Notes under the pieces: model-generated | What the model was told of the DNA's origin: nothing | The model's input: the letters and a program-made list of their open reading frames with translations, nothing else | Databases searched by the model: none | Made by a program: the position numbers and the translations under genes | Source: a virus | Virus record (IMG/VR): IMGVR_UViG_3300044641_007991 | Span: 1-64,000 of that record | Length of the DNA stretch: 64,000 bases | Reading direction: 5' to 3' (one strand) | Part shown: piece by piece, positions 10,038 through 36,901 of the stretch | Position numbering within the stretch: the first letter of the stretch is position 1 | How the letters are laid out: every line of letters begins with the position of its first letter

Positions 10038-10064
10038 TCTTACAATCGTTCAAGGAGAACAATA

Positions 10065-11232: not shown

Positions 11233-11679
11233 ATGAGAAAACACCTATTAAAGTTGTTTTTTATTATGTGTTTTTCAATTGATGTTAACGCCTCTAATCT
11301 AGTTTATGAATTCAATAATCCATCATTTTCGGGAAATGGTTGGTCAACTCAAGTAATAACTCTAGAACAAATAGAATCCGCTCGAAAGCAAAAAATAAAA
11401 GATGATGCAGCAGCTGGCATAGCCAAAGCTGCAGCTGATGCTAAAAATAGCAATTTATCTAAATTTTTAGTTAATGTTGAGTCCAGGATTTACGCTCAAT
11501 TATCCAAACAATTAGCTGATCAAATGTTTACTGATAGTGGAGCAACATCAGGTACAATGGATTTTCAGGGAACATCTATTAATTGGGTTAAAGGTGCAAC
11601 TGATGTATCGTTAACAATTACAGAATCTAATGGTAATACCACTGATATTATAGTTCCTATTGGTCAGTTTGGATTTTAA
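11233..11679 (+). CDS. csgF: CsgF-like curli assembly protein
   Basis: 148 residues. Signal peptide at 1-20 ending in VNA, then SNLVYEFNNPSFSGNGW, which matches the conserved mature N-terminus of CsgF. The rest has QLSKQLADQMF, then a beta-rich end with DVSLTITESNGNTTDIIVP, as in CsgF. In bacteria CsgF caps the outside of the CsgG pore and helps nucleate curlin. The ATG at 11233 is chosen because it begins the signal peptide; the frame stays open upstream. It is followed by csgG after one base. Late expression is expected. Confidence 0.85.
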   Translation: MRKHLLKLFFIMCFSIDVNASNLVYEFNNPSFSGNGWSTQVITLEQIESARKQKIKDDAAAGIAKAAADAKNSNLSKFLVNVESRIYAQLSKQLADQMFTDSGATSGTMDFQGTSINWVKGATDVSLTITESNGNTTDIIVPIGQFGF

Positions 11680-11680
11680 T

Positions 11681-13048: not shown

Positions 13049-13098
13049 TATAAATAGACGGTAGTCGCGGATCCCCCGATCCCACTACCTCTAAACAT
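13049..13098 (+). promoter_or_regulatory. HEG 5' module 3: late promoter and covarying hairpin
   Basis: TATAAATA (13049-13056), outer stem GGTAGT/ACTACC (13060-13065/13084-13089), CGC, inner stem GGATC/GATCC (13069-13073/13078-13082), one C, then TCTAAACAT (13090-13098). The best-paired copy. Confidence 0.88.
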
Positions 13099-13125
13099 TT
13101 TTACACTTAATCAAGAGGATTAACA

Positions 13126-13974: not shown

Positions 13975-13975
13975 T

Positions 13976-15034
13976 ATGCAATTTTGTGTATTTGTATTTT
14001 TAACATTTATATCAGTGAATGTTTTATCTGATATAGGGAAAATCGAATACCAAACAGGATTAGCTGAAATTAATAGGAATAATAGATCCTATGCAACTAA
14101 AGAGCAATTTCCAGTAGAATCTAAAGATTCTATTATTACAGCTAATTCTAAACTTAATATTAAATTTGAAGATAATACACGAGTTGCTGTGTCTGAACAA
14201 AGTAAACTTATTATTGATGATTTTATATACGACCCTAAAAAAACAGCAGGGAAATTAGCTTTAAAGTTTGCTTTAGGAACTGTTAGATATACTTCAGGAC
14301 AAATTGCTAAACATAATCCTCAAACAGTATCTATTAATACGCCGACTTCCGTAATTTCAATTCGGGGCACTGATTTTAGCGCCACTGTTGATGAATTAGG
14401 TAAAAGTACAATTATTTTATTACCCAGTTGTGATATTACTGGTTGTGTTACAGGTGCTATTGAAGTTTCTACTGATGCAGGGTTTGTTTTAATGAACCAA
14501 GCATTCCAGACAACAGTTGTATCAGATAAAAATTCTGCTCCAACAAAACCTGTTATCATATCAATCGATGCAGCTAATATAGATAATACATTAATTGTAT
14601 CTCCTCCTGTAAAATCTACAGATAATTCAACAAAAGTAGAACAAATAAAAACTGATTTAGATATTAATTTTCTTGATCAAGATTTTTTATCATACAAACA
14701 ATTAGATTTAAATGTTTTAGATTTAAGCAGCGAATTAGATAAAAATTATCTTGAGGTTGCTTTAATGGAAGATATGTTGAACGCTACTAATCAAGTCGGC
14801 AGCGATTTATTAGCTGTTGGGGTAATGTTGCCTGGATATAATGAGGCTAGTAATTTAAAATATTATATTAATTCTATTGAACAATTAGTATTAAACAAAT
14901 CATCAAAACACCAATTTGAATTAAAAATTGATAAAAATTCAGATGCAACATTAAATTTAAATCAAGAAGGTGTTCCATTATCTCAAAGAATTAATATGGG
15001 TGTTGCAACAAAAATTACTATTATTCAAAAATAA
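13976..15034 (+). CDS. Exported FecR-domain protein
   Basis: 352 residues. Signal peptide at about 1-18 (FCVFVFLTFISVNVLS). A FecR domain spans about 25-150 with the hallmark LGTVRYTSGQIAKHNPQ, SINTPTSVISIRGTDFSA. The C-terminal 150 residues are unassigned, ending in DATLNLNQEGVPLSQRIN. In bacteria FecR-domain proteins of this kind often sit beside CHASE2-cyclase genes, as here (15776). Location: periplasm. Its start directly follows the cassette 3 stop, so translation may depend on coupling, or the original start may have been lost when the cassette inserted. Confidence 0.85.
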   Translation: MQFCVFVFLTFISVNVLSDIGKIEYQTGLAEINRNNRSYATKEQFPVESKDSIITANSKLNIKFEDNTRVAVSEQSKLIIDDFIYDPKKTAGKLALKFALGTVRYTSGQIAKHNPQTVSINTPTSVISIRGTDFSATVDELGKSTIILLPSCDITGCVTGAIEVSTDAGFVLMNQAFQTTVVSDKNSAPTKPVIISIDAANIDNTLIVSPPVKSTDNSTKVEQIKTDLDINFLDQDFLSYKQLDLNVLDLSSELDKNYLEVALMEDMLNATNQVGSDLLAVGVMLPGYNEASNLKYYINSIEQLVLNKSSKHQFELKIDKNSDATLNLNQEGVPLSQRINMGVATKITIIQK

Positions 15035-15065: not shown

Positions 15066-15779
15066 ATGAAAAAACTTGTTTTAGCACTATGTTTAGCGTT
15101 TTCTACTGCTGTATTTGCAGGAACTATTAACGAACAATGTCCGCAATTAACTGTAAACGGAACTCCACAATATGAATCTCAGCAAGGCGATCAAGAAATT
15201 TGTCATGCAAATTATGCAGTAATTCATAGATGCGGAGTAAAGGCTCCAGTTGCAGTATTTGAACATTTAACCAAAGAAGATATTACTGGTCCAGCTAAAC
15301 GAAAAGATAATTTTCACCCTGATTCTGATGTTTCCCCGCAATGTTCAGCTACTTTAGCCGATTATGCTACTGTTGGTAAAACTCATGATAGAGGACATTT
15401 ATCTCCAGCTGGAAACAATACTCAAAGTGCTGATATTATGAGCGAAAGTTTTGATTTGAGTAACATGGTAGCTCAGGTAGCAAACAATAATCGTGGGATC
15501 TGGAAACAATTAGAAACTAAAGAACGCGAAATGATTTCAACTGCAGGAACAGATTATTATATTATTTCTGGTGGCATTTTTGATCCTGGATACTCTGTAA
15601 CTGGTAATGGTTTGGGTATTCCAACTAGATTGTATAAAATAATTGTCGAGAAAAATAATAAATCCGTGCAAGCATATTTAATGCCAAATGCTGCGTTACC
15701 TGTGACAGATTTACCGAAATATCAAGTGTCGCTAGAAGAAGTTGAGCAAGCAACGCAAATGAAATTTAATTTAAAATGA
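15066..15779 (+). CDS. Secreted DNA/RNA non-specific endonuclease (NucA/Serratia type)
   Basis: 237 residues. Signal peptide 1-18 ending in VFA. The active-site phrase THDRGHLSPAGNN (about 109-121) holds the catalytic His and is followed by MSNMVAQ-type residues (LSNMVAQVANNNRGIWKQLE), the metal-binding part. Such nucleases degrade DNA and RNA in the periplasm or outside the cell. It overlaps the cyclase gene by 4 bases. Possible roles are removing free DNA during lysis or loosening an extracellular matrix; neither is shown. Confidence 0.92.
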   Translation: MKKLVLALCLAFSTAVFAGTINEQCPQLTVNGTPQYESQQGDQEICHANYAVIHRCGVKAPVAVFEHLTKEDITGPAKRKDNFHPDSDVSPQCSATLADYATVGKTHDRGHLSPAGNNTQSADIMSESFDLSNMVAQVANNNRGIWKQLETKEREMISTAGTDYYIISGGIFDPGYSVTGNGLGIPTRLYKIIVEKNNKSVQAYLMPNAALPVTDLPKYQVSLEEVEQATQMKFNLK

Positions 15780-17524
15780 GAAAAGTTTTATTATCTCCAT
15801 GGTTTTCGTTGGTAACTCTAGCATTAGTAATAGTGCTACGGGTTGCTGACCCTAGTTTCATAGAATCGATTCGACTTCGATATTTCGACACAATTATAAC
15901 AAGTCAGCAAGTTAAACCTTCTGAACAAATTCGTGTTGTTAATATTGATGATGAAACGATCAAACGCTATGGTCAATTCCCATTTCCGCGTGACAAATAT
16001 GCTGAGATAATCCAGACATTATTTGACCATCAAGCTGGATTAGTTGTTTTTAACGTATTCATGCCAGAATCTGATAGGTTTGGAAAGGACAATGAACTCA
16101 AAAAAATTATTGACACCTATCCAGTTATCTTACCTGAAGTTGGGGTTAATGATTCTACTGCTAGTGTTGCCCCTAAAATTGGCGTATCCGAAATCGGTGA
16201 ATCTGCCAGACCTTGGGCGCCACAGTACAAGGGAATACAATCTAACATCCCAGAATATCAGGGTGCAGCAGGCATTGGAGTCGTTAATACCCTCCCAGAA
16301 ATTGATGGAGTCACCAGAAGAATACCCATGGTTGTATCAGCCACAGATACTCTCTACCCGTCCATCTCGATGGAAACGCTTAGAGTTGCAGCTGGAGACC
16401 CTAGCTTTCAAATTAAGTCTAATGAATCGGGGATCGAAGCAGTTAGAATCCCTCAGTTTGGAAAAATTGATACTGATGAATTTGGAAGAATCTGGATCGA
16501 TTGGTCGAACATACCGATGGAATATTCCTTCAATAGATTACCCGATAGTTTTGATGGTGGAATTGTTATTGTCGGGCTTACTGGACGAGGACTCAATAAT
16601 CCTGTCGCAACAGCTAGAGGGAACGTCTATCCGCATCAACTTCAATCTACGGTATTAGATACAATTTTAAAAGGTACTAATATTTCTAGACCAGATTGGG
16701 CAACAGTTGTTGAATTATTATCAACATTATTATTGAGTATTGTTTCTATATTATTAGTGCGGTGGAAATATGGATTTATTCCTGTTATTACAGCTATTAC
16801 CTCTATACATTTTGGTGTTAGTTATATTTTTAACAATTATCATTACCTTTTGGACGCTACGATTCCTGTTCTGGGCATTTTTCTGGTGTATGCTCATAGT
16901 TTCACTGTTAAATTTATTACTGAACTAAACGCTAAATTGCAAATTAAACGACAATTTGGAACTTATTTAAGTCCTGCATTGGTAGAAAAGTTGCAAAAAA
17001 ATCCTGAGTTGTTAACTCTTGGTGGAGAATCTAGAGAATTGACAATTTATTTTTCTGATATTAGGTCATTTACAACGCTGTCTGAGCATTATAAAACTGA
17101 TCCCATGGGGTTAACCAATTTAATAACCCGATATATGGATAAAATGTTACCTATTATAATGAAAAATGAAGGTACTGTTGGAAAACTTATTGGTGATGCT
17201 ATTATGGCATGGTGGGGTGCTCCATTAGATGTAGAAAATCACGCATCAATGGCTATTAAAACTGCAAAAGAAATGGAAATAGCATTAGCAGAATTAAATG
17301 AAGAATTAATATCTGAAGGTAAACCTCCATTACATGTTGGTGCTGGTATTAGTACTGGAACTGTATTTGTTGGTAATATGGGATCTTCTGAAAGATTTAG
17401 TTATGATATATTAGGGGATGAGGTTAATCTTGCAGCAAGATTAGAAGGACAAACTAAAGGATACGGAGTATCTTTAATATTGAGTGAAAACGCATTAAAT
17501 AGATTAAAGTTTGAAAATGTATAA
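15776..17524 (+). CDS. CHASE2-domain adenylate/guanylate cyclase, N-terminal piece of a split gene
   Basis: 582 residues. A membrane helix (about 8-22), an extracytoplasmic CHASE2 sensor (about 25-300), three membrane helices (about 305-375) and a class III cyclase domain (about 395-582). Metal-binding Asp residues lie in FSDIRSFT and IGDAIMAWWG; the transition-state Asn and Arg are in DEVNLAARLEGQ. The piece ends at LNRLKFENV because cassette 4 interrupts it. The missing last strands are encoded at 18504-18770. All catalytic residues are in this piece, so activity may survive, alone or with the C-piece. It probably makes cAMP or cGMP in response to an envelope signal. Confidence 0.9.
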   Translation: MRKVLLSPWFSLVTLALVIVLRVADPSFIESIRLRYFDTIITSQQVKPSEQIRVVNIDDETIKRYGQFPFPRDKYAEIIQTLFDHQAGLVVFNVFMPESDRFGKDNELKKIIDTYPVILPEVGVNDSTASVAPKIGVSEIGESARPWAPQYKGIQSNIPEYQGAAGIGVVNTLPEIDGVTRRIPMVVSATDTLYPSISMETLRVAAGDPSFQIKSNESGIEAVRIPQFGKIDTDEFGRIWIDWSNIPMEYSFNRLPDSFDGGIVIVGLTGRGLNNPVATARGNVYPHQLQSTVLDTILKGTNISRPDWATVVELLSTLLLSIVSILLVRWKYGFIPVITAITSIHFGVSYIFNNYHYLLDATIPVLGIFLVYAHSFTVKFITELNAKLQIKRQFGTYLSPALVEKLQKNPELLTLGGESRELTIYFSDIRSFTTLSEHYKTDPMGLTNLITRYMDKMLPIIMKNEGTVGKLIGDAIMAWWGAPLDVENHASMAIKTAKEMEIALAELNEELISEGKPPLHVGAGISTGTVFVGNMGSSERFSYDILGDEVNLAARLEGQTKGYGVSLILSENALNRLKFENV

Positions 17525-17571
17525 ATAATGTGTAGATCGCGATACTACTAATATCCATCTACTCTAAACAT
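17520..17571 (+). promoter_or_regulatory. HEG 5' module 4: late promoter and covarying hairpin
   Basis: TATAAATA (17520-17527), which supplies the stop codon of the cyclase N-piece. Outer stem GTAGAT/ATCTAC (17532-17537/17557-17562), CGC, inner stem GATA/TATC (17541-17544/17552-17555), one C, then TCTAAACAT (17563-17571). Confidence 0.87.
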
Positions 17572-17599
17572 ATTCTTAACACTATTACGAGGAACAGTT

Positions 17600-18511
17600 A
17601 TGTCCAGCGAAAATATTTATACACATACAATATCAGAATCACAACGATTAGAATTTAAACCTACTTGGTTATACATTAAATATCACCCAGTAACAGGCTT
17701 ATCTTATTTTGGTAAGACGATTAAAAATCCATACAAATATAAAGGATCTGGTCCATATTGGAAAAACCATATAAAAAAGTATAATAGTAAATTTGTAGAA
17801 ACTTTATGGTGTCATTTATTTGTGAATATTGATGAATTGGTTGAATATGCTTTATGGTTTTCTAGTGTGAACGATATTGTAGAATCCACATTATGGGCTA
17901 ATATGGTATTTGAAGATGGATTAGGTGGAAGAGGAGTAAGTGGTGCCGGTAATGGTATGTACAATAAACAGCACACAGAAGAAACGAAAAAATTAATTTC
18001 TGAAATAAAAACAGCTAATCCGGTAAAACTGTTTGCAGAAGATAATCCACGATTTGGGAAACCTGGAACATTTAAAAATAAAACCCACACTAAAGAATCT
18101 AAATTGAAAATTTCAAATTCTAAAAAGAATAAAACTTATGAAGAAATTTATGGCTCGGTTGAAAAAGCTCAAATAATGAGAGAAAAACGATCAACCGAAT
18201 CTAAAAATAGATCTGTATCTGAAATTACTAGAAAAAAATTAAGTTTAGCCAATATAGGAAAGACTAGAACTGAACAACAAAGATTAAATAATTCAAAAGC
18301 TCAAAAAGGATTACAAGCAGGATCCAATAACCCAAGAGCTTTAAAAATTAAAGCGATATCTCCAGAAGGCGAAATATTCCATATTCATGGAGAATTTAGA
18401 ATATTTTGCGAATCTAAATCATTATCTCAATCAATAGCAGGAAAAATATTGAAACATAACCATAAACCAAAATCCGGTAATTGTATTGGGTGGAGTTTTT
18501 CTTATGAATGA
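17600..18511 (+). CDS. GIY-YIG homing endonuclease with NUMOD3 repeats (cassette 4)
   Basis: 303 residues. MSSENIYTHTISES, GIY-YIG core FKPTWLYIKYHPVTGLSYFGKT (about 19-40), then NUMOD3-type DNA-binding motifs: GMYNKQHTEETKKLISE, NPRFGKPGTFKNKTHTKES and a third near 225. The C-terminal part (about 250-303) looks like a NUMOD1/HTH segment, ISPEGEIFHIHGEFRIFCESK. It interrupts the cyclase gene. Its stop overlaps the start of the cyclase C-piece (ATGAATGA), so the C-piece is likely translated by coupling. Confidence 0.88.
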   Translation: MSSENIYTHTISESQRLEFKPTWLYIKYHPVTGLSYFGKTIKNPYKYKGSGPYWKNHIKKYNSKFVETLWCHLFVNIDELVEYALWFSSVNDIVESTLWANMVFEDGLGGRGVSGAGNGMYNKQHTEETKKLISEIKTANPVKLFAEDNPRFGKPGTFKNKTHTKESKLKISNSKKNKTYEEIYGSVEKAQIMREKRSTESKNRSVSEITRKKLSLANIGKTRTEQQRLNNSKAQKGLQAGSNNPRALKIKAISPEGEIFHIHGEFRIFCESKSLSQSIAGKILKHNHKPKSGNCIGWSFSYE

Positions 18512-18770
18512 TTTTGTTGAACTCGATACAGTAGCAGTCAAGGGAAAAAAAGAAGGGATTAAGATTTTCACGGTAGCAAATCCACCACCAGAACATCAAT
18601 TATATCTAGAAGCATATTATGCTGGGGATTGGAAATCTGCTGCGATTATTTGTAAACATTTATCCGAACAACCAGGAGATCTTCAACATTATTATGAATT
18701 AATGTTAGAACGTATTTCTGGAGAATGTCCAGATAACTGGACTGGTACATATCACGCAACTTCCAAATGA
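18504..18770 (+). CDS. CHASE2 cyclase, C-terminal piece of the split gene
   Basis: 88 residues. NDFVELDTVAVKGKKEGIKI is exactly the closing beta strands of a class III cyclase domain, and the tail (LYLEAYYAGDWKSAA ... CPDNWTGTYHATSK) matches the usual end of CHASE2 cyclases. Joined to the N-piece, the protein reads KFEN|DFVELD; both sides share AATG at the junction. It has its own ATG within the endonuclease stop. Whether the two pieces associate is unknown. Confidence 0.85.
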   Translation: MNDFVELDTVAVKGKKEGIKIFTVANPPPEHQLYLEAYYAGDWKSAAIICKHLSEQPGDLQHYYELMLERISGECPDNWTGTYHATSK

Positions 18771-18799: not shown

Positions 18800-20431
<1,632 letters not shown>

Positions 20432-21284: not shown

Positions 21285-21730
21285 TGTAAGAAAACGGTTT
21301 ATTCTGTTTCGAGGAAAACCGCAAAAACCCAACTATAATTTTAAGCTGCTAGAGCAGTAGAATTATAGAAAGCGTCGTTTTTAGCTTCGCCATTTACTTA
21401 TTTTATGCTGATTACGTCAGTCATCTCTCGATTCTCCAGTGTTCTTTGATCTCAACGTCGAATCTGTTCACCCCCATCAGAAACACACTTAAACTGGTCC
21501 GGCAGAATTTTTTCATTCCAGTTCGTTTATGTGACCGTCGTCACTACTTAGCTGCGGCAAAAGTATGTTTCTGGTGGAGGTGGGGGAATAATGCTATCCC
21601 CGTCCGCCAAAACTATTATAACACCTTCAACGAATACTTTAAAATCACACTGCATAAGGACATAACGGACTCAAACCGAGTTCTTTGATACTATCTTACC
21701 TTATCGAACCTGAACACCTAGTGTGATTTT
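21285..21730 (-). ncRNA. ssrA: Circularly permuted (two-piece) tmRNA
   Basis: On the minus strand the acceptor piece comes first and ends CACCTCCACCA (21582-21572); about 96 bases later the coding piece begins GGGGGTGAACAGATTCGACG (21475 onward), with the near-invariant ATTCGACG. GGGGGTG pairs with CACCTCC to make the acceptor stem (one G-U), and the intervening bases extend this helix (GAAACA with TGTTTC). A tag frame ends in ALAA and stop. A perfect 11-bp stem (21730-21720/21651-21641) closes the outer acceptor domain. The two-piece order is known from alphaproteobacteria, cyanobacteria and some betaproteobacteria. The 5' limit of the acceptor piece and the 3' limit of the coding piece are approximate. 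Confidence 0.88.
21341..21391 (-). other. tmRNA tag-peptide frame
   Basis: Reading from GGC at 21391 gives GEAKNDAFYNSTALAA then TAA; resuming at GCT would give AKNDAFYNSTALAA. The -4 base before GGC is A, as needed in E. coli tmRNA, which favours the longer tag. The ALAA end is the classic ClpXP/ClpAP degradation signal. The tag is nested inside a stem (CTATAATT/AATTATAG). Confidence 0.85.
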
Positions 21731-23486: not shown

Positions 23487-23935
23487 CGTTGCCACTCCAC
23501 AATTGTATAATCAACCATACCTTCTAAATTATTTTTAATAATATCTCGAATAATGTTCCAGTCACCACCTGCTAAACCAGCACCAATTAATGGTAACCCA
23601 ATTTTTTTACCTTTAAAATCCGTAGCAATTAATCGCATAGAATCATTGATTGCTTGATAATTTTGCTTTAGGTCATTATATCCAGGCATGTATTGAGTGT
23701 ACGCATTTACAATTGTTAAACCCTTATCCATATAGGTATGTGCGCTATATGAACCCAATTTTGTTATATCACCCTGTTCTGTTGATTTGTCTGACAAATA
23801 CGCTTCTGGATATCTATTCCTAATTTGTAGAGCAATCCCTGCGCCCATAGCGCAAAAACAATTACAACCATGAACGATAACATCGAACTCGCCAGCATCA
23901 AATAAATCTAATAAATCACCTTTAATAATTTTCAT
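23483..23935 (-). CDS. Macrodomain protein (ADP-ribose phosphate phosphatase-like)
   Basis: 150 residues, a whole macrodomain. MKIIKGDLLDLFDAGEFDVIVHGCNC has the ADP-ribose pocket; CAMGAGIALQI and GLPLIGAGLAGGDW are the two glycine-rich loops. The closest known type is the Poa1p/ADP-ribose-1''-phosphate phosphatase group. Its substrate arises during 2'-phosphate removal in tRNA repair, which fits the RNA ligases nearby; ADP-ribose produced from NAD is the alternative. It overlaps genes on both sides by 4 bases. Confidence 0.88.
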   Translation of the reverse strand: MKIIKGDLLDLFDAGEFDVIVHGCNCFCAMGAGIALQIRNRYPEAYLSDKSTEQGDITKLGSYSAHTYMDKGLTIVNAYTQYMPGYNDLKQNYQAINDSMRLIATDFKGKKIGLPLIGAGLAGGDWNIIRDIIKNNLEGMVDYTIVEWQR

Positions 23936-24882
23936 TCTATATCCTCTAAAGTATTAGCAACAGTTTTATCATCCCTAACGCGAGAAAAAATTGGTAGGAA
24001 TAAAGATTTAATATCTGAATCTCGGTTTGAAATAATACAATTATATTTTACCTCGATAATTTTACCAACATAAGATTCTGGGTTATCTCGCTCACCTCGT
24101 TTATGTTTAAATCCAGAACCAACATTTACTCGCAATCGACCACAAGCAGTTTCACAAATTAATGATCCCAACATACCTTCAAATTGAGTTCCTGGAGTAC
24201 CATATTCAAAACCAACAACCAATAGATCCATAGGGTCTTCTGCTTTTAATTTTAATTGGTATTTAGATCGTTTGGCTTCCCATACACCATCCATTGCTTT
24301 AAGAATTCCGCCTTCTTCGCCTCGTTCTAGATTACGCTGATATTTTTGCATAACTTCTTCGCGAGAATTTACAATCTCGGATTCAACAATTTGTAATTTA
24401 GTTTGATTTTCTGGAACTGCTAGCCCAACAAATTTAAATCTTGTAGCATAACCAACTGAACAATATTCGTTTAAAAAATCATCATAAGGAATATAATCCC
24501 AGAGAACAACATACAACCCCTTAGCTTCTTCTGAGGTAATTGTTCCACGAACAGCTTTTGTTACATAACCATTAGATACTTTGCGTTCTGCTACTCGACC
24601 ATCAGGATAGCGCCACATTAATTCGCCATCTAGAATACATCTTTCATGTGTTGCAATTTCAATATCATCAAAACATGAGATATCTAGAATATTACCATTT
24701 CTGGTTGTAGCCGATACGAATTTTCCACCATCAAACTCTAGATTAATTCTAGAACTATCCATTTTACAATTATGGACCAGAATATTGTCAGCAAAAAAAT
24801 TATTAGTATTTTCGACCGTTATATCGTATAACAAATTATCACACTCTATCTCAACTACATTTTCTATTTTCATAGTTCTCAT
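23932..24882 (-). CDS. ATP-dependent DNA ligase C-part with C-terminal split intein (IntC)
   Basis: 316 residues. Residues 1-38 are an intein C-fragment: LYDITVENTNNFFADNILVHN is blocks F and G with the penultimate His and terminal Asn. Cys 39 is the +1 residue and Lys 40 in CKMDSSR is the nucleotidyl-transfer lysine of ligase motif I (usual KxDG; here KMDS). Then follow DGELMW (motif III), EGGILKAMDG (motif IV), and KLKAEDPMDLLVVGF (motif V), and an OB-fold end, as in T4 gp30. Trans-splicing with the 26049-26819 product would give a 431-residue ligase. Confidence 0.92.
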   Translation of the reverse strand: MRTMKIENVVEIECDNLLYDITVENTNNFFADNILVHNCKMDSSRINLEFDGGKFVSATTRNGNILDISCFDDIEIATHERCILDGELMWRYPDGRVAERKVSNGYVTKAVRGTITSEEAKGLYVVLWDYIPYDDFLNEYCSVGYATRFKFVGLAVPENQTKLQIVESEIVNSREEVMQKYQRNLERGEEGGILKAMDGVWEAKRSKYQLKLKAEDPMDLLVVGFEYGTPGTQFEGMLGSLICETACGRLRVNVGSGFKHKRGERDNPESYVGKIIEVKYNCIISNRDSDIKSLFLPIFSRVRDDKTVANTLEDIE

Positions 24883-24914
24883 AATAAATTTCCAATTTAA
24901 AGCTGTATATTGAT

Positions 24915-24990
24915 AATAAATAGTTGACCGTTTAAATGAATATTAAACGATGCTTATCGCGGAATAGCAGTTCCCATAAGCACTAATCAT
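24915..24990 (+). promoter_or_regulatory. HEG 5' module 5: late promoter and covarying hairpin
   Basis: AATAAATA (24915-24922), an extra hairpin CGTTTA/TAAACG (about 24929-24949), outer stem TGCTTAT/ATAAGCA (24951-24957/24976-24982), CGC, inner stem GGAA/TTCC (24961-24964/24971-24974), one C, then CTAATCAT in place of CTAAACAT. Confidence 0.83.
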
Positions 24991-25014
24991 CAACTATCAA
25001 ATATAGGAATCGAT

Positions 25015-26103
25015 ATGACCAGCAATAATATTTATACTATTACCGAACAACAACGATTAAATTTTAAACCGACTTATTTAATGATTAAACAACATTCAAT
25101 AACAGGTAAAAAATATTTTTGTAAAACTGTAACATCCAACCCTTTAAAATATTCTGGGTCAGGGGATTATTGGTTAAAACATATAAAAAAGCACGGAGTT
25201 CAATTTGTCGAGACAATATGGTATAAATTGTATACTGATATAGACGAATTAGTAAACTATGCTTTACAATTTTCTATCGAAAATGATATTATTAAATCTA
25301 AACTCTGGGCGAATAAAATGTTAGAAAACGGGTTATCTGGCGGGTTATCTAAAGATTTGTTATCAGAACAGACCATATTAAATATGGTTAATGCTCAATT
25401 AAATAGATCCCCAGAAGCTAAATTTATCTCTAAAACAAAATATAAAAATACTATACAGAATAGATCAGAGTTTAAAAAATTAGAACTATCTAATAAAATT
25501 AGAAAAACAAAATTAGCTATGACTTCTGAACAAAAAGCAGAACAAAAACGTAAAGAATACGAAACAAAAGCAAATAGATCCCCTGAACAAAAAGCAGAAC
25601 AAAAACGTAAACAAAGCGAGTCTTATTTAAAGACATTTAATTCTAAATCTGATGACAGTAAACGCGAACAATATACAAAAAGAGCAAAAACAATGTCACT
25701 AAAATCTGAAGAAGAATTAGCTTCTATCTACGCAAAAATAAGTCGCCCAGGTAAATTAAATCCTATGTACGGTAAACCTCGCCCAGATTTAATTGAAAAT
25801 AATAAAAATCCTATAAAACGACAAAAACAAATACAAACGCGCAAAAAATTAGATCTTGAGAGAAAATTACGTAGATTTAAAATTGAAACTGAGATTAAAT
25901 TTTACGAGAAAATATTAGAATTATCTTCAATCCACTCAACGTACACTAAATCCGGAAAAATAAATTTTAATACATTAGCTAAATATTTTCCTGAGTATAA
26001 TGGTTCAACTCAAGCAACAACAGCAGCTCTGCGTAGATTTTATGAATATTACACATCAACTAAAATAATATCGGATGACGATAATTCATCTACTCTAATA
26101 TAG
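25015..26103 (+). CDS. GIY-YIG-type homing endonuclease inside the ligase intein (cassette 5)
   Basis: 362 residues. MTSNNIYTITEQQ, GIY-YIG-like core FKPTYLMIKQHSITGKKYFCKT, then a very basic middle with duplicated EQKAEQKRK (about 170-205) and NPMYGKPRP (NUMOD3-like, about 255). It lies between the two ligase halves but on the opposite strand. Its last 55 bases overlap the 3' end of the IntN coding region tail to tail. It probably cuts intein-free ligase alleles; this is inferred from position. Confidence 0.82.
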   Translation: MTSNNIYTITEQQRLNFKPTYLMIKQHSITGKKYFCKTVTSNPLKYSGSGDYWLKHIKKHGVQFVETIWYKLYTDIDELVNYALQFSIENDIIKSKLWANKMLENGLSGGLSKDLLSEQTILNMVNAQLNRSPEAKFISKTKYKNTIQNRSEFKKLELSNKIRKTKLAMTSEQKAEQKRKEYETKANRSPEQKAEQKRKQSESYLKTFNSKSDDSKREQYTKRAKTMSLKSEEELASIYAKISRPGKLNPMYGKPRPDLIENNKNPIKRQKQIQTRKKLDLERKLRRFKIETEIKFYEKILELSSIHSTYTKSGKINFNTLAKYFPEYNGSTQATTAALRRFYEYYTSTKIISDDDNSSTLI

Positions 26104-26819
26104 GCGTCTTTATTGATACACCAAATTAAATGATTTCCAGTTAAAGGTTTGGTGTATTCTCCGTTTTCCATTTTAAGTTTATACCATTTATGGTGTATAG
26201 TTTGTTTATTAACAAATTTATCTAATACCGTATTATATTCAACTTTATTTGTATGGTGATTAAATGATTTAACTTTAATATCTTTAATATCAGATTCAAT
26301 TAATTGTTTTATCGTCATATTACCCTCTGTTGTATTAAGAACCCAATCTTCCGATAAACACTGAAAAATAGCTGGATATTTAATATTCTTTTCGGTTTTC
26401 TCATTGAATTTGCCGCACAATAAAACTGGATATTCTGGAATTAAATCTTTCCAAATTTTATTTACAGTTTTTGCGCTAACGCCACATTTTAAATCGCGTT
26501 CGATAATACGATATAAAACTTCTTGATCATCTACTGGCAATTTACCTAGTATCATAGATACATATTCGATAGCTTCATTACCAGTAAGCTCTCTATTACA
26601 AATATTAACTTTAATGCTGGATAAAGCGCCAATCAAATCTACGGTAATACCGTTATTTGGAGAAACTGGAGGACGTTTTTTAATCCAATATTTAATTCTT
26701 GGGTTATAAGCAAATAAAAATACAGCTCGCACAACCGGATTATCAACATATGATTTTAATAGAGCGATTTTGTCGTTAGTGCCTGATGTTGCTGCTAGTT
26801 GATTCAATAAATTTAACAT
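26049..26819 (-). CDS. ATP-dependent DNA ligase N-part with N-terminal split intein (IntN)
   Basis: 256 residues. Residues 1-153 are the N-terminal domain of a T4 gp30-type ligase (LNQLAATSG, RDLKCGVSAKTVNKIW, LIPEYPVLLCGKFNEK). The intein begins at Cys 154: CLSEDWVLNTTEGNMTIKQL is block A, and TGNHLIWCINKDAYIRVDEL is block B. It ends IILVDV at a stop. The split point is thus about 100 residues into the intein, where endonuclease domains normally sit. It has a strong sigma70-type promoter. Confidence 0.92.
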   Translation of the reverse strand: MLNLLNQLAATSGTNDKIALLKSYVDNPVVRAVFLFAYNPRIKYWIKKRPPVSPNNGITVDLIGALSSIKVNICNRELTGNEAIEYVSMILGKLPVDDQEVLYRIIERDLKCGVSAKTVNKIWKDLIPEYPVLLCGKFNEKTEKNIKYPAIFQCLSEDWVLNTTEGNMTIKQLIESDIKDIKVKSFNHHTNKVEYNTVLDKFVNKQTIHHKWYKLKMENGEYTKPLTGNHLIWCINKDAYIRVDELSSSDIILVDV

Positions 26820-30293: not shown

Positions 30294-31997
30294 TTAAACC
30301 TTGTCAGTAATAGCTCTAATTTCCGCCAATGTTGTTGTTTTAACTAATTGACTATCTTTAAATACAGTTTCTAAACAACCGTGGCGTTCTTGATCAACAG
30401 ATACTTGATCAACTAATTTATAAACACCATCTGTTTGGGTAACCATTAATAACCCTTTAGCCGATTTCTTAATACCATTATCAGTTTTTGGATCTTTAAA
30501 GATTTCTACACCTGCACCATTAATCTCAGCATAGGTAGATTTCATGGCCATACCGTGAGTATCTCTGGTAACATATTGGAAACTGAATGAACCAATACCC
30601 AGCACAACATTACTTGATGCAAAACCTTTTTGTTCTAATCTACGGAAAATTTCCTCAGCACGTTTGTATGTGATAGAATCACCGTAAATAGCACCAATAT
30701 GAGTATCTAATACTTTGTAACCGTTTTCAGTTAAAGTGCCACCGAAAATATCCCATAAACATTCAATTAAACCTTTTTGTTCAGGCGAAATCTCAACTTC
30801 TTCAAATTCAAGCACCCTACTGTTATCAACATAATAGTATTGTTTATCATAACGATTCCACTCAATTTCTACTTTAGCTTTATAATATTTGTCGCCAGCT
30901 TTATAAATTCTGGTTACAATATCTTCACCGCATTCGCCATGAGGAGTATCATTACGAATTTCGGATTCTATATCGTTTAACATATAGTTTTTAATCGAAT
31001 CCAAACAGTCAATAGCAACATATTTTGCCGGCACAACTGGAATATCAATACCACACAGAATTTCAACTGGATCACCAGAATCTGGACGAATAATAACACG
31101 ACCATCTCTAGCCATAATATCAGATTTTAATCGCACCAAATAATCGGTAATAACTTGCCAGAAATCCCATGTATCACTAACAATAGATACCATACCGCTT
31201 GGATAAATTTCGGTAATTAATCGTTTATAAGTATCAAATTCATCTTCTTTAGTACCGCTGCACATAACACTGTGTTCTGTAGCAGGAACCGAAACGCCAA
31301 CAATTTCTGTATCGCTATCAGCAAAATAATAATCCTCAGCCAAATCAATTGCTGGGATATTATCTGTACCATAAGCGCCAGCTGCTAATACAGCAAAACC
31401 AGACGATGCAGCTGCGTGGCGACCTGCCATACCGCGAAAACCAAAATCATGGAACTGATACCGAACAAACTCTTTATCGGCTCCAGTAAGCTCTGCATAA
31501 CGCAAACCCAATTTCTTGTAAGCCATATAAGTTGTGGCTGATGTAATTGGTTGCCATAATTCAGCTGATAATACCGATTCTAACATATTAGTTACCCAGA
31601 AAAATTCTGGTTTAGTATTAACCACAGTTAACATTGGAACGCCATATGGAACCATAGAACCTTCTGGTAAGGCTTTAATCTCAATTGGTAAATAACCCAA
31701 TTTATGCAGCGCACGAATATGATCTACATTAACCTTATAACCAACGATATTTGAAACGCGACGTTGATATGAATTAACCACGCGATCAATTGATCGAGTA
31801 AAGAATGAATAATCCCAATCTTCAATCAAGTAATCTAAGATAAAATGTTGTAGACCAACAAAACAAATACCATCGGTTGGTACGTTTTGATTTTTACCTG
31901 AACGAGCGGTAAAGTTAGAATAAATTTTAGTTGTACCAGGAGCATACTGATCTTTATGGTTTACTTTATAGCTGTCTTTTTGGTGTAATGCGCTCAT
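30294..31997 (-). CDS. nadV: Nicotinamide phosphoribosyltransferase
   Basis: 567 residues. Family phrases: SALHQKDSYKVNHKDQY at the N-terminus, YSNFTARSGK, RYQFHDFGFRGMAGRHAAA (active site), VSVPATEHSVMCSG, SIVSDTWDFW and IIRPDSGDP. It joins nicotinamide and PRPP to give NMN, the first step of NAD salvage. PRPP synthetase is encoded just upstream, giving both substrate supply and use. Longer than human NAMPT (491) because of an insertion at about 340-420. Own sigma70-type promoter. Confidence 0.96.
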   Translation of the reverse strand: MSALHQKDSYKVNHKDQYAPGTTKIYSNFTARSGKNQNVPTDGICFVGLQHFILDYLIEDWDYSFFTRSIDRVVNSYQRRVSNIVGYKVNVDHIRALHKLGYLPIEIKALPEGSMVPYGVPMLTVVNTKPEFFWVTNMLESVLSAELWQPITSATTYMAYKKLGLRYAELTGADKEFVRYQFHDFGFRGMAGRHAAASSGFAVLAAGAYGTDNIPAIDLAEDYYFADSDTEIVGVSVPATEHSVMCSGTKEDEFDTYKRLITEIYPSGMVSIVSDTWDFWQVITDYLVRLKSDIMARDGRVIIRPDSGDPVEILCGIDIPVVPAKYVAIDCLDSIKNYMLNDIESEIRNDTPHGECGEDIVTRIYKAGDKYYKAKVEIEWNRYDKQYYYVDNSRVLEFEEVEISPEQKGLIECLWDIFGGTLTENGYKVLDTHIGAIYGDSITYKRAEEIFRRLEQKGFASSNVVLGIGSFSFQYVTRDTHGMAMKSTYAEINGAGVEIFKDPKTDNGIKKSAKGLLMVTQTDGVYKLVDQVSVDQERHGCLETVFKDSQLVKTTTLAEIRAITDKV

Positions 31998-32030
31998 TTC
32001 AAAATTCCTATCAAGTTAAGGTATAGAGTT

Positions 32031-32066
32031 ATTGTACTCTAATTCAAGTCAAATGTCAAGCACTTT
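32031..32066 (-). promoter_or_regulatory. Sigma70-type early promoter
   Basis: -35 TTGACA (32059-32054), 17 bp, -10 TACAAT (32036-32031); drives nadV. Confidence 0.92.
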
Positions 32067-32305
32067 TTACAGATGCTTTAAAAATTGCATTTCTTGTTCT
32101 GTTGGGAAAAATTTATGGATAATTTCTACTCTAGGATCTGTTTGTTCAAAGGAATCTGTGGTGTAGATAGCATCAACACCACCTTCAAATAATGGATCTA
32201 ATCCACGCGAGAAAATACCATGAGTAACAAATAATCCAATTTTTCCTGCACCACGGTCTATTAACACTTTTGCCAATTCAGTGAAAGTAGCTCCGCCATC
32301 AGAAA
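32067..32305 (-). pseudogene. Old 3' end of the PRPP synthetase gene
   Basis: From SDGGATFTELAKVL the frame reads about 78 residues to a stop and aligns with the last quarter of PRPP synthetase: 43 of 66 residues are identical to the end of the intact gene (33369-34211), including RGAGKIGLF and IYTTDSFEQTDPRV. It is cut off from the rest by cassette 6. It could be translated from the ATG at 32276, but lacks the catalytic core. It is best read as the displaced original gene end. Confidence 0.85.
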
Positions 32306-32314
32306 AGTAAATTT

Positions 32315-32368
32315 TATAAATATATTATGCTAGTCGCGGTGCTACCAACACCCACTAGCTCTAAACAT
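32315..32368 (+). promoter_or_regulatory. HEG 5' module 6: late promoter and covarying hairpin
   Basis: TATAAATA (32315-32322), outer stem GCTAGT/ACTAGC (32329-32334/32354-32359), CGC, inner stem GGTG/CACC (32338-32341/32349-32352), one C, then TCTAAACAT (32360-32368). Confidence 0.88.
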
Positions 32369-32391
32369 TTTCATTCAGATAAGGATTACCT

Positions 32392-33372
32392 ATGTTCAGC
32401 ACAGATATTTATACCATACTATCATCAAAACCTCATAATCAACATTATTTAAAACGATACGTTAAATTCATAGAATATTGTAACAATATTAATGCGCATT
32501 ATACTGGTTATGTAGAATATCATCACATATTACCAAAAGCTAAGACGCTATTCCCTGAATATAAAAATTTTAAACAAAACCCCTGGAATAAAATAAAACT
32601 AACTCCAAGGCAACACTTTATAGCTCATTGGATGTTGTGGAAAATATTCGGCGGTTTTATGGCTTACGCATTTTCTATAATGCGTAGAAAATCTAAAGTT
32701 CAATCAGAAAGATATTTTCGATTAAATAGCAAATCGTATGGAGAATTGAAAATAGCAGTTAGCAAATCTCAATCAACCAGAATCATATCAAAAAAAACGA
32801 TAGAGAAAATGAAAAAATCTCAAAAAAATAAACCTAAAATTCGATGCCCTCATTGCGATAAAATCGGGGATGAATCTAACATGAGAAGGTGGCATTTCGA
32901 TAATTGTAAAGTTTTTACTGATAAATCTGTACACGAAGTAAAACAAAAATCTGATATTGTAACTTGCCCTCATTGTGGAAAAACCGGAAAAGAACAAGGT
33001 ATGTTGGCTAACCATTTCTCAAATTGTAGTGTTATTAGAGGAGATTACCGAAAAGTAAAAGATAAGATAACATGTCCACATTGTAAAAAAGAAGGCGCGA
33101 ACACATATGGGTTTAAGGTTTATCATTTCGATAATTGTAAAATTTTAACGGGAAAGATTATACGCGCAGTAGAATATGATTTATCTATAGTTAAGTGTCC
33201 GCATTGCGATAAAGAAGGGACAATGCACGGAATGAAATCAAGTCATTTCGAACACTGTCCTACACTCAAACCAGAATTACCGAAAATACAATGCCCGCAC
33301 TGCAAAAAAGAAGGTAATAACAACGGCTATTTTAAATCTCATCATTTTGATAAGTGTAAACAAAAAATTTAA
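32392..33372 (+). CDS. HNH homing endonuclease with five zinc fingers (cassette 6)
   Basis: 326 residues. After MFSTDIYT comes an HNH nuclease: EYHHILPKAK (about 43-52), then NKIKLTPRQHFIAHWMLWK (about 66-84). The C-terminal 180 residues hold five tandem CPHC...H-F-x-x-C motifs (about 145, 185, 220, 260 and 300), a zinc-finger array likely to read the target DNA. This is the only HNH member, yet it has the same 5' module and start region as the GIY-YIG cassettes. Its stop overlaps the stop of the intact PRPP synthetase gene by 4 bases. Confidence 0.88.
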   Translation: MFSTDIYTILSSKPHNQHYLKRYVKFIEYCNNINAHYTGYVEYHHILPKAKTLFPEYKNFKQNPWNKIKLTPRQHFIAHWMLWKIFGGFMAYAFSIMRRKSKVQSERYFRLNSKSYGELKIAVSKSQSTRIISKKTIEKMKKSQKNKPKIRCPHCDKIGDESNMRRWHFDNCKVFTDKSVHEVKQKSDIVTCPHCGKTGKEQGMLANHFSNCSVIRGDYRKVKDKITCPHCKKEGANTYGFKVYHFDNCKILTGKIIRAVEYDLSIVKCPHCDKEGTMHGMKSSHFEHCPTLKPELPKIQCPHCKKEGNNNGYFKSHHFDKCKQKI

Positions 33373-34211
33373 TTAAAAAAGTTATAAATTACCTGAACTC
33401 TTGGATCTGTTTGTTCAAACGAATCTGTGGTGTAGATGTGATCAATATTATCGTTAAATAATACATCTACACCATAATCAAAAATTCCATGGGTAATAAA
33501 CAACCCAATTTTACCTGCACCCCTAGCTTTTAATTCCCTAGCCAATAATCGGAATGTCATACCGCCTGAACAAATATCATCGACGATCAAACAATCTGCG
33601 CCATCCAAGTTATCCGATAACAATTCTGTTTTAGTAATGTTACCAGTTGCAGGATCTCGTACTTTAAGAGCCTGCAGAACATCAATTTTTGATGATAAAT
33701 TATACCCTCGAGCAAAATCAACTGCTTTTTTACTGGCACCTGCATCCGGAGCAACGATATAACTGTAATTAGCTAATCCAAGAATTCCTAATCTAGAAGC
33801 CAATGGGAATGCAAAAGTAGATTGAGCTCGTTCTACAACATTATCTAATAATGCAGTAGCAACTGTGCTATGAGCATCTGTTACATGTACTCGAGAATAA
33901 CCCTGGGAATTAATTAAATTTGCAAAAATTTTAAGTGAAAATGAATCGCCTAGATTACAAACTCTATCCTGACGAGCATATGGAATATAAGGTAACACCA
34001 ATTCAATTGTTTTAATTCCCAGTCGTTTTAATGCATCAGTTACTAACAACAACCGCATTAATTCGCTAGAACTATCAATTCTTGCTAGAATTTCTACTGA
34101 GGAACTAACAATAGCTGGCGAGGGTAATACAACATTAACATGTTCTTCTCCACCAGAGAACGTATGAAATTTAATTTCTACAAAATTTTCTTGCTGTTTT
34201 ACAATAATCAT
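33369..34211 (-). CDS. prs: Ribose-phosphate pyrophosphokinase (PRPP synthetase)
   Basis: 280 residues. Conserved phrases: LPYIPYARQDRVCN, VHVTDAHSTVATALL, VAPDAGASKKAVDFA and the PRPP loop DCLIVDDICSGGMTF (about 205-220). It makes PRPP from ribose 5-phosphate and ATP. It forms a supply line with NadV. Its last quarter appears to have arrived with cassette 6: it differs from the older end still present at 32067-32305 and reads CSGG where the older copy and most relatives read SDGG. Confidence 0.94.
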   Translation of the reverse strand: MIIVKQQENFVEIKFHTFSGGEEHVNVVLPSPAIVSSSVEILARIDSSSELMRLLLVTDALKRLGIKTIELVLPYIPYARQDRVCNLGDSFSLKIFANLINSQGYSRVHVTDAHSTVATALLDNVVERAQSTFAFPLASRLGILGLANYSYIVAPDAGASKKAVDFARGYNLSSKIDVLQALKVRDPATGNITKTELLSDNLDGADCLIVDDICSGGMTFRLLARELKARGAGKIGLFITHGIFDYGVDVLFNDNIDHIYTTDSFEQTDPRVQVIYNFFN

Positions 34212-34213
34212 TA

Positions 34214-35278
34214 TTAATCCTCGAATTTCATTAAAAATTTATTAGAAATTGCTTTAAAGTGGACGCGTGTATCGGTAATACATTTAAATACCAAACCTTC
34301 TCGTTCAGTTTTAACATTTAATTCACTTTTGCTTTCAGCTAATTGTAATAGACTATCAATAGTTTGATTTTCAAGAGTCATTGTACCTAGAACTGGAACG
34401 TGTTTCAAACCTAATTTCTCACACAATTCTAATCGTTCTGCTGATGATAGATATTCACCCTTATCAATATCATAAATGGTAAACACATAGAAATCAATAT
34501 CATTTAATTTATATTTGTTACCTTGAATTCCCACGCCACACAATTCACCTTGAATTGCAATATTTCTATCTAGAGCAGTTAATTTTTCTTCAAGAGTATA
34601 TTTTCTAGCAGCACCCCAAAAAGAATTACCTTCAGTTTCTTTTAATTGTAGGTTACGAGAACAAACGCCAAATTCAGCAATAAAATCATCTGCGTCAGTC
34701 ATAGCATTATTTCTAAAGAATACAGTCATAGATGAGCCATCTAATTTTTCAGAAATTTCCCATTGATCATCCGATTGTGACCATTTACCTAAATTTTTTG
34801 ATAAATTTTGAACACGTTCTTCGTCAGTTTTTGGAATAAAACTTGGGAAATTACCTTTAGCTTGACCAGCTAATTGTGCTGGCAATGGTCGTTCGTATTT
34901 CAAGATACCCAATAATTCAGTAACGTCGTCATCTTCATTCCAATCGGATGATGTTGCTTCGCCAACATAGTTTGACATCACAACACCAAATGGTAACAAC
35001 AAACCTTGGCTACAAGTTCCGCGCAATTTAATTGTACGCAATCGTTCACCTTTAACACCTTCAAACTCTCTTGGTTCTTTACCATTGGATAAGAATGGAG
35101 CTAACTCGTGCGGGATCCATGAATCAATAGAAAAATATACTGCTAATTGTCCAGTATTAAATTCACCCAATTTAGTTACAACTTTCCACCCACCAATAGT
35201 ACAAATATCCAATGCATCAGCATTAGGATGTTTCTCAACATTATCAATTCTAGCAATCCACGCCATTTTTCTACTCAT
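34214..35278 (-). CDS. RNA ligase, DRB0094/Rnl5 type
   Basis: 354 residues from the ATG at 35278, with GAGGTG upstream. An N-terminal tRNA-binding-like OB domain (1-110: MAWIARIDNVEKHPNADALD, LRGTCSQGLLLPFG) precedes the adenylation domain. Motif I is EKLDGSSMTVF (Lys about 182), motif III NIAIQGELCG, motif IV EGLVFKC and motif V HFKAISNKFLMK. It seals nicked RNA or RNA/DNA ends. Its 5' end seems to have arrived with cassette 7; an older 5' end remains at 36758-36901. Confidence 0.92.
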   Translation of the reverse strand: MSRKMAWIARIDNVEKHPNADALDICTIGGWKVVTKLGEFNTGQLAVYFSIDSWIPHELAPFLSNGKEPREFEGVKGERLRTIKLRGTCSQGLLLPFGVVMSNYVGEATSSDWNEDDDVTELLGILKYERPLPAQLAGQAKGNFPSFIPKTDEERVQNLSKNLGKWSQSDDQWEISEKLDGSSMTVFFRNNAMTDADDFIAEFGVCSRNLQLKETEGNSFWGAARKYTLEEKLTALDRNIAIQGELCGVGIQGNKYKLNDIDFYVFTIYDIDKGEYLSSAERLELCEKLGLKHVPVLGTMTLENQTIDSLLQLAESKSELNVKTEREGLVFKCITDTRVHFKAISNKFLMKFED

Positions 35279-35304: not shown

Positions 35305-35390
35305 TATAAATAAAGTATAGATTAAAAATGTCTATACAACACAAAAAAAGCCAATCGCGATACTGGTAATATCCATTGGCACTAATACTA
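35305..35390 (+). promoter_or_regulatory. HEG 5' module 7: late promoter and covarying hairpin
   Basis: TATAAATA (35305-35312), an extra hairpin GTATAG/CTATAC (about 35315-35339), outer stem GCCAAT/ATTGGC (35350-35355/35375-35380), CGC, inner stem GATA/TATC (35359-35362/35370-35373), one C, then ACTAATACT. Confidence 0.83.
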
Positions 35391-35405
35391 ATCAGGAGTA
35401 TCAGC

Positions 35406-36626
35406 ATGAATATTTATTACGTTTACGTTTATCGCCATCCAACAACAAATATACCATTTTATGTCGGCATGGGTAAAAAAGATAGATATCTTTCGCATTT
35501 AAAAGAAGCAATTAAGCATCCAACCCCAGTCCGCAGTCAAGGAAAATTAAATACTATCAGAAAAATTATTCGAGAAGGTTCACAACCAGTTATACAGTTA
35601 ATAGACACAAAATTATCAAAAGAGGATGCTATTGAACTAGAAATATTTTTGATAGAATTGATAGGAAGAAAAGATTTAAAAAACGGGTCACTTACCAATC
35701 TAACGTCTGGCGGAGACGGGTATTCTGGGTGGTCTGACTTCCACCGAGAAGAACAATCTAATAGAATGAAAACTACAATAGCAGTAAAAAATCCAGTTAC
35801 CGGAGAAAAATTTCGTGTTTCTGATAATGATCCTAGATGGTTGTCCGGAGAACTTGTTGGACAAAACCTTGGAGAATGTAATAGTAACATAAATGGTAAA
35901 TTAGACGGTTATATACAAGCAAAAGATAAAAACGGTAATATTTTTAGAATAAAACCGACCGATCCTAGATGGTTGTCCGGAGAACTTGTTGGGATTAATA
36001 AAAATAGACCTGCACATGAAAACACTAAAATAGCTGCAAGTAAAACACATAAAGGTGTACCAAAATCAAAAGAACATAATAAAAAAGTGTCTGAATCAAC
36101 TAAAGGTTCAATATGGATCCATAACTTTGATACAGGAAAAACATCCAGACTAACGAAAATTAATCCAAATATACCAAACGGGTTTGTAATTGTTTGTGGG
36201 CCACATAAATTATTAACTTTAGAACAACGAGAAGAAGAACGTATAACAGTTAAAAATAACAAAAAACAAATACGATCAGAAACAGCTTTGTTAAGAAAGC
36301 AAAATAATTCTCTCGCCCAAAAACAATTTAGAAAAGATAATCCATTTTTCGGGTTAACAGAAAAACAAATCCAATTTTCAATTGAAATAGTAGAATTATT
36401 TTCTACAAAACCTACAGTCCCATTAATAGGTAGAAGAGGAAACGGAATACGTCAACTCTCGTATATTAGAGCATTTTCCTTATTTGTATCAAAACAATAT
36501 AATGTTACACTACATACAATACATTCTATTGTAAATGGAAAAAAGCCTAATTTAATTCACGAAATTATTAAAATTCGCCCAGATTTATCAGATATTTGTC
36601 AAGAAATATTGCAAAATTGCCACTAG
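35406..36626 (+). CDS. GIY-YIG homing endonuclease with PRWLSGELVG repeats (cassette 7)
   Basis: 406 residues from the ATG at 35406 (CAGGAG upstream). A clear GIY-YIG core: IYYVYVYRHPTTNIPFYVGMG, then YLSHLKEA and ELEIFLIELIGR with the catalytic Glu, and NLTSGGDGYSG. The middle has two copies of DPRWLSGELVG (about 140 and 195) and a NUMOD3-like SKTHKGVPKSKEHNKK. The tail is a basic helical domain. It lies head to head with the intact RNA ligase gene, separating it from the ligase's original start. Confidence 0.9.
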   Translation: MNIYYVYVYRHPTTNIPFYVGMGKKDRYLSHLKEAIKHPTPVRSQGKLNTIRKIIREGSQPVIQLIDTKLSKEDAIELEIFLIELIGRKDLKNGSLTNLTSGGDGYSGWSDFHREEQSNRMKTTIAVKNPVTGEKFRVSDNDPRWLSGELVGQNLGECNSNINGKLDGYIQAKDKNGNIFRIKPTDPRWLSGELVGINKNRPAHENTKIAASKTHKGVPKSKEHNKKVSESTKGSIWIHNFDTGKTSRLTKINPNIPNGFVIVCGPHKLLTLEQREEERITVKNNKKQIRSETALLRKQNNSLAQKQFRKDNPFFGLTEKQIQFSIEIVELFSTKPTVPLIGRRGNGIRQLSYIRAFSLFVSKQYNVTLHTIHSIVNGKKPNLIHEIIKIRPDLSDICQEILQNCH

Positions 36627-36757: not shown

Positions 36758-36901
36758 TCAATAGACGACTAAATCACCAACGCTATATTTTTCTTTTTGG
36801 TCAACAATCCACCAACCATCTACTCTATACGCACAAATTAAATCTGCACCTTCGATCAATTTAATTTCTTGAATTCGTTTAATACTCGCTAATTTTCTCA
36901 C
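36758..36901 (-). pseudogene. Old 5' end of the RNA ligase gene
   Basis: 47 codons from GTG (AGAGGTAGATT upstream) read RKLASIKRIQEIKLIEGADL ... GDLVVY and stop. They align without gaps to residues 2-47 of the intact ligase, 15 of 46 identical, including RI, AD, GW and VY. It still has the sigma70-type promoter. Cassette 7 separates it from the rest of the gene, so it is a displaced original start. Confidence 0.82.

Follow-up and report, generated by a model that had tools for sequence, protein, structure and literature searches.

How does a virus gene come to be followed by a second copy of its own 3' end, with an endonuclease gene lying between the two? The question is posed by prs, the PRPP synthetase gene, in a 64,000-nucleotide stretch of DNA (hereafter the window; positions 1 to 64,000 of IMG/VR record IMGVR_UViG_3300044641_007991), taken from a virus record of 74,280 bases. 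Scanning the prs protein against IMG/VR retrieved a second record of the locus (L001, 100% amino acid identity), two sisters (L002 and L003, about 90% overall) and two cousins (L004, 60%; L005, 51%). Close relatives in the searched collections numbered just two, each a metagenomic fragment. The features around prs are as follows.

33369-34211, minus strand: intact prs open reading frame, 280 aa (Pfam Pribosyltran_N and Pribosyltran)
33570-34211, minus strand: native prs sequence, through IVDDIC (by identity to L003 and L002)
33369-33569, minus strand: probable replacement 3' end of prs, 66 codons and stop (drop in nucleotide identity; dS about 1.6 against L003)
32392-33372, plus strand: predicted homing endonuclease, 326 aa (phrog_655, phrog_12434 and zinc-ribbon matches)
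32328-32367, plus strand: conserved hairpin, putative leader RNA of the endonuclease (49.9 bits with covariance model R1)
32315-32322, plus strand: TATAAATA, the T4 late promoter core, 5' of the endonuclease (pattern search)
32067-32300, minus strand: remnant, the displaced native 3' end of prs, from codon DGG (match to the L003 gene end)
32031-32059, minus strand: sigma70-like promoter of nampt, TTGACA-17-TACAAT, outside the insertion (11/12 consensus match)

The prs gene is a hybrid

The earlier note on this DNA had placed an intact prs next to the endonuclease, and open reading frame coordinates and Pfam domains agreed; the two stop codons overlap tail to tail by four bases (TTAA). It had also counted 43 identical residues out of 66 between prs and a second C-terminal segment. 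Our search of the record recovered that segment at 32106-32303, free of internal stops; it matched residues 214-279 at 65% identity (E 3e-24). As judged from the alignment, the resemblance of the two ends is far beyond chance. The recognisable remnant runs from 32300 (codon GAT of DGGATF) to a stop at 32067.

Comparison with the sister L003, which has no cassette and whose prs is intact at the insertion codons, provided the empty site. Upstream of the junction, 209 of 210 residues were identical between the two genes (8 differences in 630 bases; synonymous distance, dS, 0.05). L002 showed 14 differences over the same 630 bases, and dS against the sisters ranged from 0.05 to 0.08. At the junction, nucleotide identity to L003 fell from 98% to about 60%; in 20-codon bins it stayed at 97-100% until codon 200 and was 87, 67 and 58% in the next three. 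The replacement end matched the L003 end at only 42 of 69 residues (61%; 39% differ), with a dS of about 1.6, and the jump in dS at one codon of prs was roughly 20- to 30-fold. The remnant, by comparison, matched the L003 gene end at 68 of 80 residues (85%), and at 90% of nucleotides including the downstream spacer; the spacer between the remnant and nampt is common to L003 and L002. The L003 gene ends in ...HKFFPTEQEMHFLKHS, and the remnant likewise in ...HKFFPTEQEMQFLKHL.

The break point falls within the conserved PRPP-binding loop, between IVDDIC and DGG. The shared sequence runs through GTCGATGATATTTGT (IVDDIC); GATGGCGGAGC (DGGA) is where the remnant picks up. Because identity stops at the former and the remnant restarts at the latter, no native codon was lost and none was doubled. 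The sequence comparison thus indicates that prs is a hybrid, with a native front, a probably foreign last quarter and its old tail stranded past the insert. The dS step and the L003 match bear out the proposal of the earlier note that a cassette brought in a foreign 3' end, which kept the gene open while displacing the native one. The note had predicted that a cassette-free relative would end like the remnant, as L003 does; a cassette-free relative with the window's end, or with both ends, was sought in IMG/VR and none was found.

Two observations qualify this picture. The remnant differs from the L003 end with a dS of 0.36, against 0.05 for the remainder of prs, which suggests either that the 3' segment of prs is a recombination hot spot or has undergone further exchange, that the segment has been under relaxed selection, or that the remnant is decaying. 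No donor of the replacement end nearer than about 60-67% was found in IMG/VR, whether the end was searched alone or as a profile, and a single scan of a genome-contig collection yielded just distant prs genes. A tree of the last 70 residues of prs was poorly resolved, the segment being too short to place the replacement end.

L002 carries a second insertion at these codons

In L002, prs is 98% identical to the window upstream of the junction and then continues into a different end (VADGAASFLNLAA...HKFFPDVIT). The insertion lies at identical codons, again with a TTAA overlap, and carries a different endonuclease (a 379-codon frame). The two replacement ends are identical at 42 of 69 residues. 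Of the L002 remnant, DGGLTFT and the last codons FPTEQEMKFLKHL are kept and most of the middle is deleted; by its sequence, this remnant is already decaying by deletion.

The endonuclease of the window matched phrog_655 (homing endonuclease, E 3e-44) and phrog_12434 (HNH, E 6e-11). Its N-terminus is of HNH type, and its C-terminal half contains repeated zinc-finger-like units with zinc-ribbon matches. Like the free-standing homing endonucleases of phages, it combines nuclease and DNA-binding domains and has an empty site in a relative. The endonucleases of the window and L002 share 52 of 101 residues in the C-terminal zinc-finger region, while their N-terminal catalytic domains are unlike each other. 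The common C-terminal region would fit a shared target. Either homing struck this site twice, independently, or a related cassette later took the place of the first.

Among about 45 other relatives of both endonucleases, no more duplicated gene ends were recognised, in a screen that could miss weakly similar ends and did miss the RNA-ligase remnant described below; one relative of the L002 endonuclease, L139, stops short of the right flank. Since none was recognised around these other relatives, the hybrid-end pattern is established within this lineage only.

Other genes with swapped ends

Aligning the remaining sister contigs to the window revealed further cases, two of which replace 5' ends.

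34214-34924, minus strand: native RNA-ligase sequence, DDVTELLG onwards (about 120 codons at 95-100% nucleotide identity to L002, mixed thereafter)
34925-35278, minus strand: probable replacement 5' end of the RNA-ligase gene, the mirror case (43-67% nucleotide identity to L002, with one 85% block)
35376-36626, plus strand: second predicted homing endonuclease, LEM-3-like GIY-YIG (PF22945 E 9e-12; phrog_314 E 2e-14)
36759-36901, minus strand: displaced 47-codon start of the native RNA-ligase gene (98% amino acid identity to L002)
13126-13974, plus strand: third predicted homing endonuclease, carrying the new FecR 5' end (phrog_12324 E 1e-9; leader motif at 13059)
13976-14135, plus strand: probable replacement 5' end of the FecR-domain gene at 13976-15034 (45-58% nucleotide identity to a sister)

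The GIY-YIG endonuclease lies upstream of the RNA-ligase gene and head to head with it. Divergence of the replacement 5' end stops sharply just before DDVTELLG, and identity of the displaced start to L002 finishes at GTCGTCTATTG. In the FecR gene, nucleotide identity to the sister was 45-58% over the first 60 or so codons and 97-100% from codon 141; the old start persists within the end of the curlin gene, overlapping 12458-13048.

For uvdE (Pfam PF03851) the situation is reversed, the gene being intact in the window and its last third replaced in the sister L159. There an HNH_3 endonuclease (L159 1053-1769, minus strand) overlaps the gene tail to tail, and the old end lies past it, with 97% nucleotide identity to the window's intact gene from GAGGAGTTC, starting at the break. 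Identity to the window was 97-100% until codon 160 and then 93, 85 and 83% ahead of the break. From these bins, the raised divergence before the break looks like co-conversion on the homologous side. In the CHASE2-cyclase gene of the window (15776-17524), an endonuclease (17600-18511) is preceded by about 200 foreign codons, and the final 88 codons are isolated on its far side; by this comparison, both sides appear to have been converted.

We consider it probable, if not assured, that endonucleases are routine vehicles of sub-gene exchange in this lineage. At least four genes would have had a 3' or 5' end swapped and the old one stranded, by cassettes that mostly carry a leader RNA absent from Rfam. 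As far as we found, this class is undescribed in phages, and its 5' version anywhere.

Side observations concern two of these regions. In L002 (3427-5995) the RNA-ligase gene has split-intein-like halves with a zinc-finger open reading frame between them, so that the same gene is split-intein-like in one phage and 5'-end-replaced in the other. The window encodes CsgG, curlin-repeat, FecR and CHASE2 adenylate/guanylate cyclase proteins (11660-15034 and 15776-18770), that is, curli-like and signalling genes in a phage, with the cyclase gene in two pieces around its endonuclease. In L159 (reverse complement, 6752-8329), TnpB-like and TnpA-like open reading frames, of IS200/IS605 type by eye, are inserted between the FecR and cyclase genes; this insertion is absent from the window.

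Probable homing with homology on one side

We regard the prs structure as very probably the scar of a homing event in which homology was available on one side only. Relative to a recipient like L003, prs has been opened at IVDDIC/DGG, and a probably foreign end, an antiparallel endonuclease and a leader have been inserted. In the proposed sequence of events, a double-strand break would have been repaired during coinfection, with the donor's endonuclease and its flanks copied into the cut recipient. The endonuclease would have cut the recipient prs at the junction, as its position suggests. The prs-side end would then have invaded a donor with a homologous prs and the endonuclease just past its stop, and copying would have proceeded through the donor gene end and into the endonuclease. 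If the genes beyond the donor's endonuclease were different, only one broken end would find homology; the other, having no matching sequence in the donor, would have been joined at or near the cut. The split target should escape further cutting, and the cassette can persist in a useful gene because prs stays open as a hybrid.

Such a model predicts a hybrid gene, a stranded end unchanged from the break onwards and possible conversion on the homologous side. In prs we found the hybrid and the stranded end, and in uvdE all three; the RNA-ligase and FecR genes show the mirror image. No co-conversion tract was seen 5' of the prs junction in the dS comparison with the sisters. Under this model the cassette need not have been pre-built, as a donor gene end lying between the cut site and the endonuclease would come along.

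A less likely reading, which we nevertheless take seriously, is that a self-contained unit of gene end and endonuclease, as proposed for mitochondrial mobile open reading frames, repeatedly enters prs. The cassettes of the window and L002 do share insertion codons, stop overlap and DNA-binding region while differing in catalytic domains, and a unit of this kind would also fit the lack of co-conversion 5' of the prs junction. However, the replaced stretch varies in length in uvdE, FecR and RNA ligase, divergence in uvdE rises 5' of the break as ordinary homologous recombination would give, and a second carrier of the same unit was not found.

We hold it very improbable that the native 3' end was duplicated in tandem around the endonuclease and that the copy in use then diverged. 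The two ends are related and have one near-identical stretch of about 35 bases in common, but dS between them is about 1.1, whereas the sisters differ by 0.05-0.08 elsewhere in prs; at the identical codons of L002 there is a third end, just as diverged. These synonymous distances (0.05-0.08 upstream, above 1 downstream) exclude duplication followed by divergence, unless the duplication is ancient and the remainder of prs has been homogenised again and again, and they show that the replacement end was not copied recently from the native one.

Still less credible is a gene in pieces, with an intron or split intein joining the parts of prs at the RNA or protein level. Both a split-intein arrangement, in the DNA-ligase gene, and a cyclase gene in two parts do occur in this phage. 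The prs gene, however, is complete without the remnant and reads through to its own stop, and the endonuclease is antisense to it. A group I intron or split intein at prs was rejected, as Rfam intron families gave no match within the window and intein motifs were absent at the junction. Finally, an assembly chimera is the least plausible reading: every sequence is metagenomic, but L001 has the identical arrangement and is 100% identical over 5776 bp and through both junctions, which makes a one-off chimera unlikely even if the records possibly come from related samples, and L002 records a different event at the same codons.

The DNA-ligase gene just mentioned encodes an ATP-dependent enzyme (window 23932-26819). 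Its N part has a 103-aa intein N extension and its C part a short intein C extension ending in HNC, with an endonuclease between the halves; the insertion site is empty in L003, L159 and L004. By these sequence features, the arrangement is a split-intein fractured gene.

Relation to known systems

The earlier note had drawn a parallel with atp6 of Allomyces mitochondria, and the comparison is apt, the architecture being the same. Hybrids made by mobile endonuclease open reading frames are known for atp6 of Allomyces macrogynus and for atp6, atp9, cox2 and nad3 of Glomus (PMC3630166). As in prs, where the end is probably foreign, a foreign and diverged end is fused in frame, the endonuclease comes next and the native end, retained beyond it, resembles that of a close relative without the cassette (PMC3630166). 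The mitochondrial cases swap the C-terminal part only, and their endonucleases are mostly LAGLIDADG (PMC3630166). In contrast, the endonucleases here are of HNH and GIY-YIG types, the one at prs is antiparallel with its own leader, 5'-end versions also occur, and several genes of one phage lineage are affected. By analogy, the prs case would work like the mitochondrial hybrids, in phages and with 5'-end swaps included.

In T4-like phages, intronless homing of the free-standing endonucleases SegF, SegG and MobE is well described, and co-conversion of flanks during double-strand-break repair is established (PMC2988022). That system shares with ours a free-standing endonuclease near a conserved gene, repair that copies the endonuclease with its flanks, and the TATAAATA and 5' hairpin region (PMC2988022). 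There, resection reaches homologous sequence on the flanks of the endonuclease and a displaced gene end is not described, whereas prs keeps one; MobE of Aeh1, in nrdA, is also named (PMC2988022).

Like the prs endonuclease, Aeh1 MobE reportedly lies inside a phage nucleotide-metabolism gene. The nrdA gene is said to work as two pieces, whereas prs is a complete hybrid accompanied by a headless remnant.

Barth et al. reported endonucleases at the edges of exchange in ICP1 and other phages, as HEG islands (PMC10448857). The accessible part of that paper describes, as here, endonucleases at recombination edges near important genes and shuffling of endonuclease domains; it describes no hybrid gene with a displaced remnant, and exchange in our case is below gene size (PMC10448857). 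In the open-access literature, as far as our partial coverage of it reaches, we found no phage precedent for hybrid ends and no 5'-end version.

Our results would offer a concrete route to hybrid phage genes, in which a selfish endonuclease brings with it a piece taken from a foreign version of the gene that it cuts. By importing that piece, the endonuclease can sit in a useful gene without killing it. They also connect a puzzle known from fungal mitochondria with phages, in which simple genetics could test the mechanism; because empty and filled sites recur in sister phages, the one-sided repair model is directly testable.

Hybrid prs and its neighbour nampt

The replacement end retains the residues invariant among 28 aligned homologues, and dN of prs is well below dS against every relative. 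An AlphaFold model of the hybrid protein had a mean pLDDT of 89, with 90-96 in the replaced part. Conservation, dN/dS and the confident predicted fold are compatible with a functional hybrid, which they do not prove. The insertion need not silence nampt, since the promoter-like sequence stands between the remnant and the nampt start codon.

The genes prs and nampt lie side by side (30294-34211), an arrangement also seen in NARP1, an anti-defence pair that rebuilds NAD. In the nampt product, F392 and Y396 from the selectivity clamp of SPbetaL1 Namat are conserved, K stands in place of R40, and there is an insert of about 85 aa; prs is only 31% identical to the SPbetaL1 neighbour. If the two genes are such a pair, endonucleases would be reshaping counter-defence genes. 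In L005 (8418-10413), a short GIY-YIG-like open reading frame (9877-10125) interrupts nampt, so that NAD-salvage genes are hit again.

A probable leader RNA precedes seven endonuclease genes

One hairpin precedes seven endonuclease genes of the window, whose catalytic domains differ.

5875-5913, minus strand: leader
9998-10036, plus strand: leader
13059-13097, plus strand: leader
17531-17570, plus strand: leader
24951-24989, plus strand: leader
32328-32367, plus strand: leader (prs endonuclease)
35349-35388, plus strand: leader

It consists of a 6-pair stem with CGC on one side and C on the other, a second stem and then CTCTAA or ACTAA, and usually follows directly on a TAAATA box. The pattern did not occur in shuffled sequence (0 occurrences). 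Two-sided changes were seen in five of the six outer pairs among 11 copies, several of them collected by requiring pairing. The leader was also present in L002, L060, L063, L068, L069, L054 and L139. A covariance model detected copies not selected for pairing, before endonuclease-like open reading frames, in L069 (two), L054, L139 (25 bits) and the rest of the record; leaders in L073-L076 scored a weak 18 bits, and L005 had one before a short open reading frame. No copy was detected in 708 kb of other phage loci, and Rfam gave no match for the leader. Four strict-pattern matches in IMG/VR were judged to be chance, and the uvdE cassette carries no leader. From pattern and covariation, the leader is possibly a new family of cis-regulatory RNAs. 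The window contains 13 copies of the TATAAATA octamer against 14 expected; because it is no commoner than chance, its reading as a late promoter rests on its position before several leaders.

Two further features of the record were noted. A permuted tmRNA of alphaproteobacterial type is predicted at 21293-21683 on the minus strand (Rfam RF04321, 85.5 bits; RF01849, 65.2 bits), where ARAGORN made no tmRNA call. The phage also encodes a GroEL (18800-20419; phrog_5725, E 1e-178).
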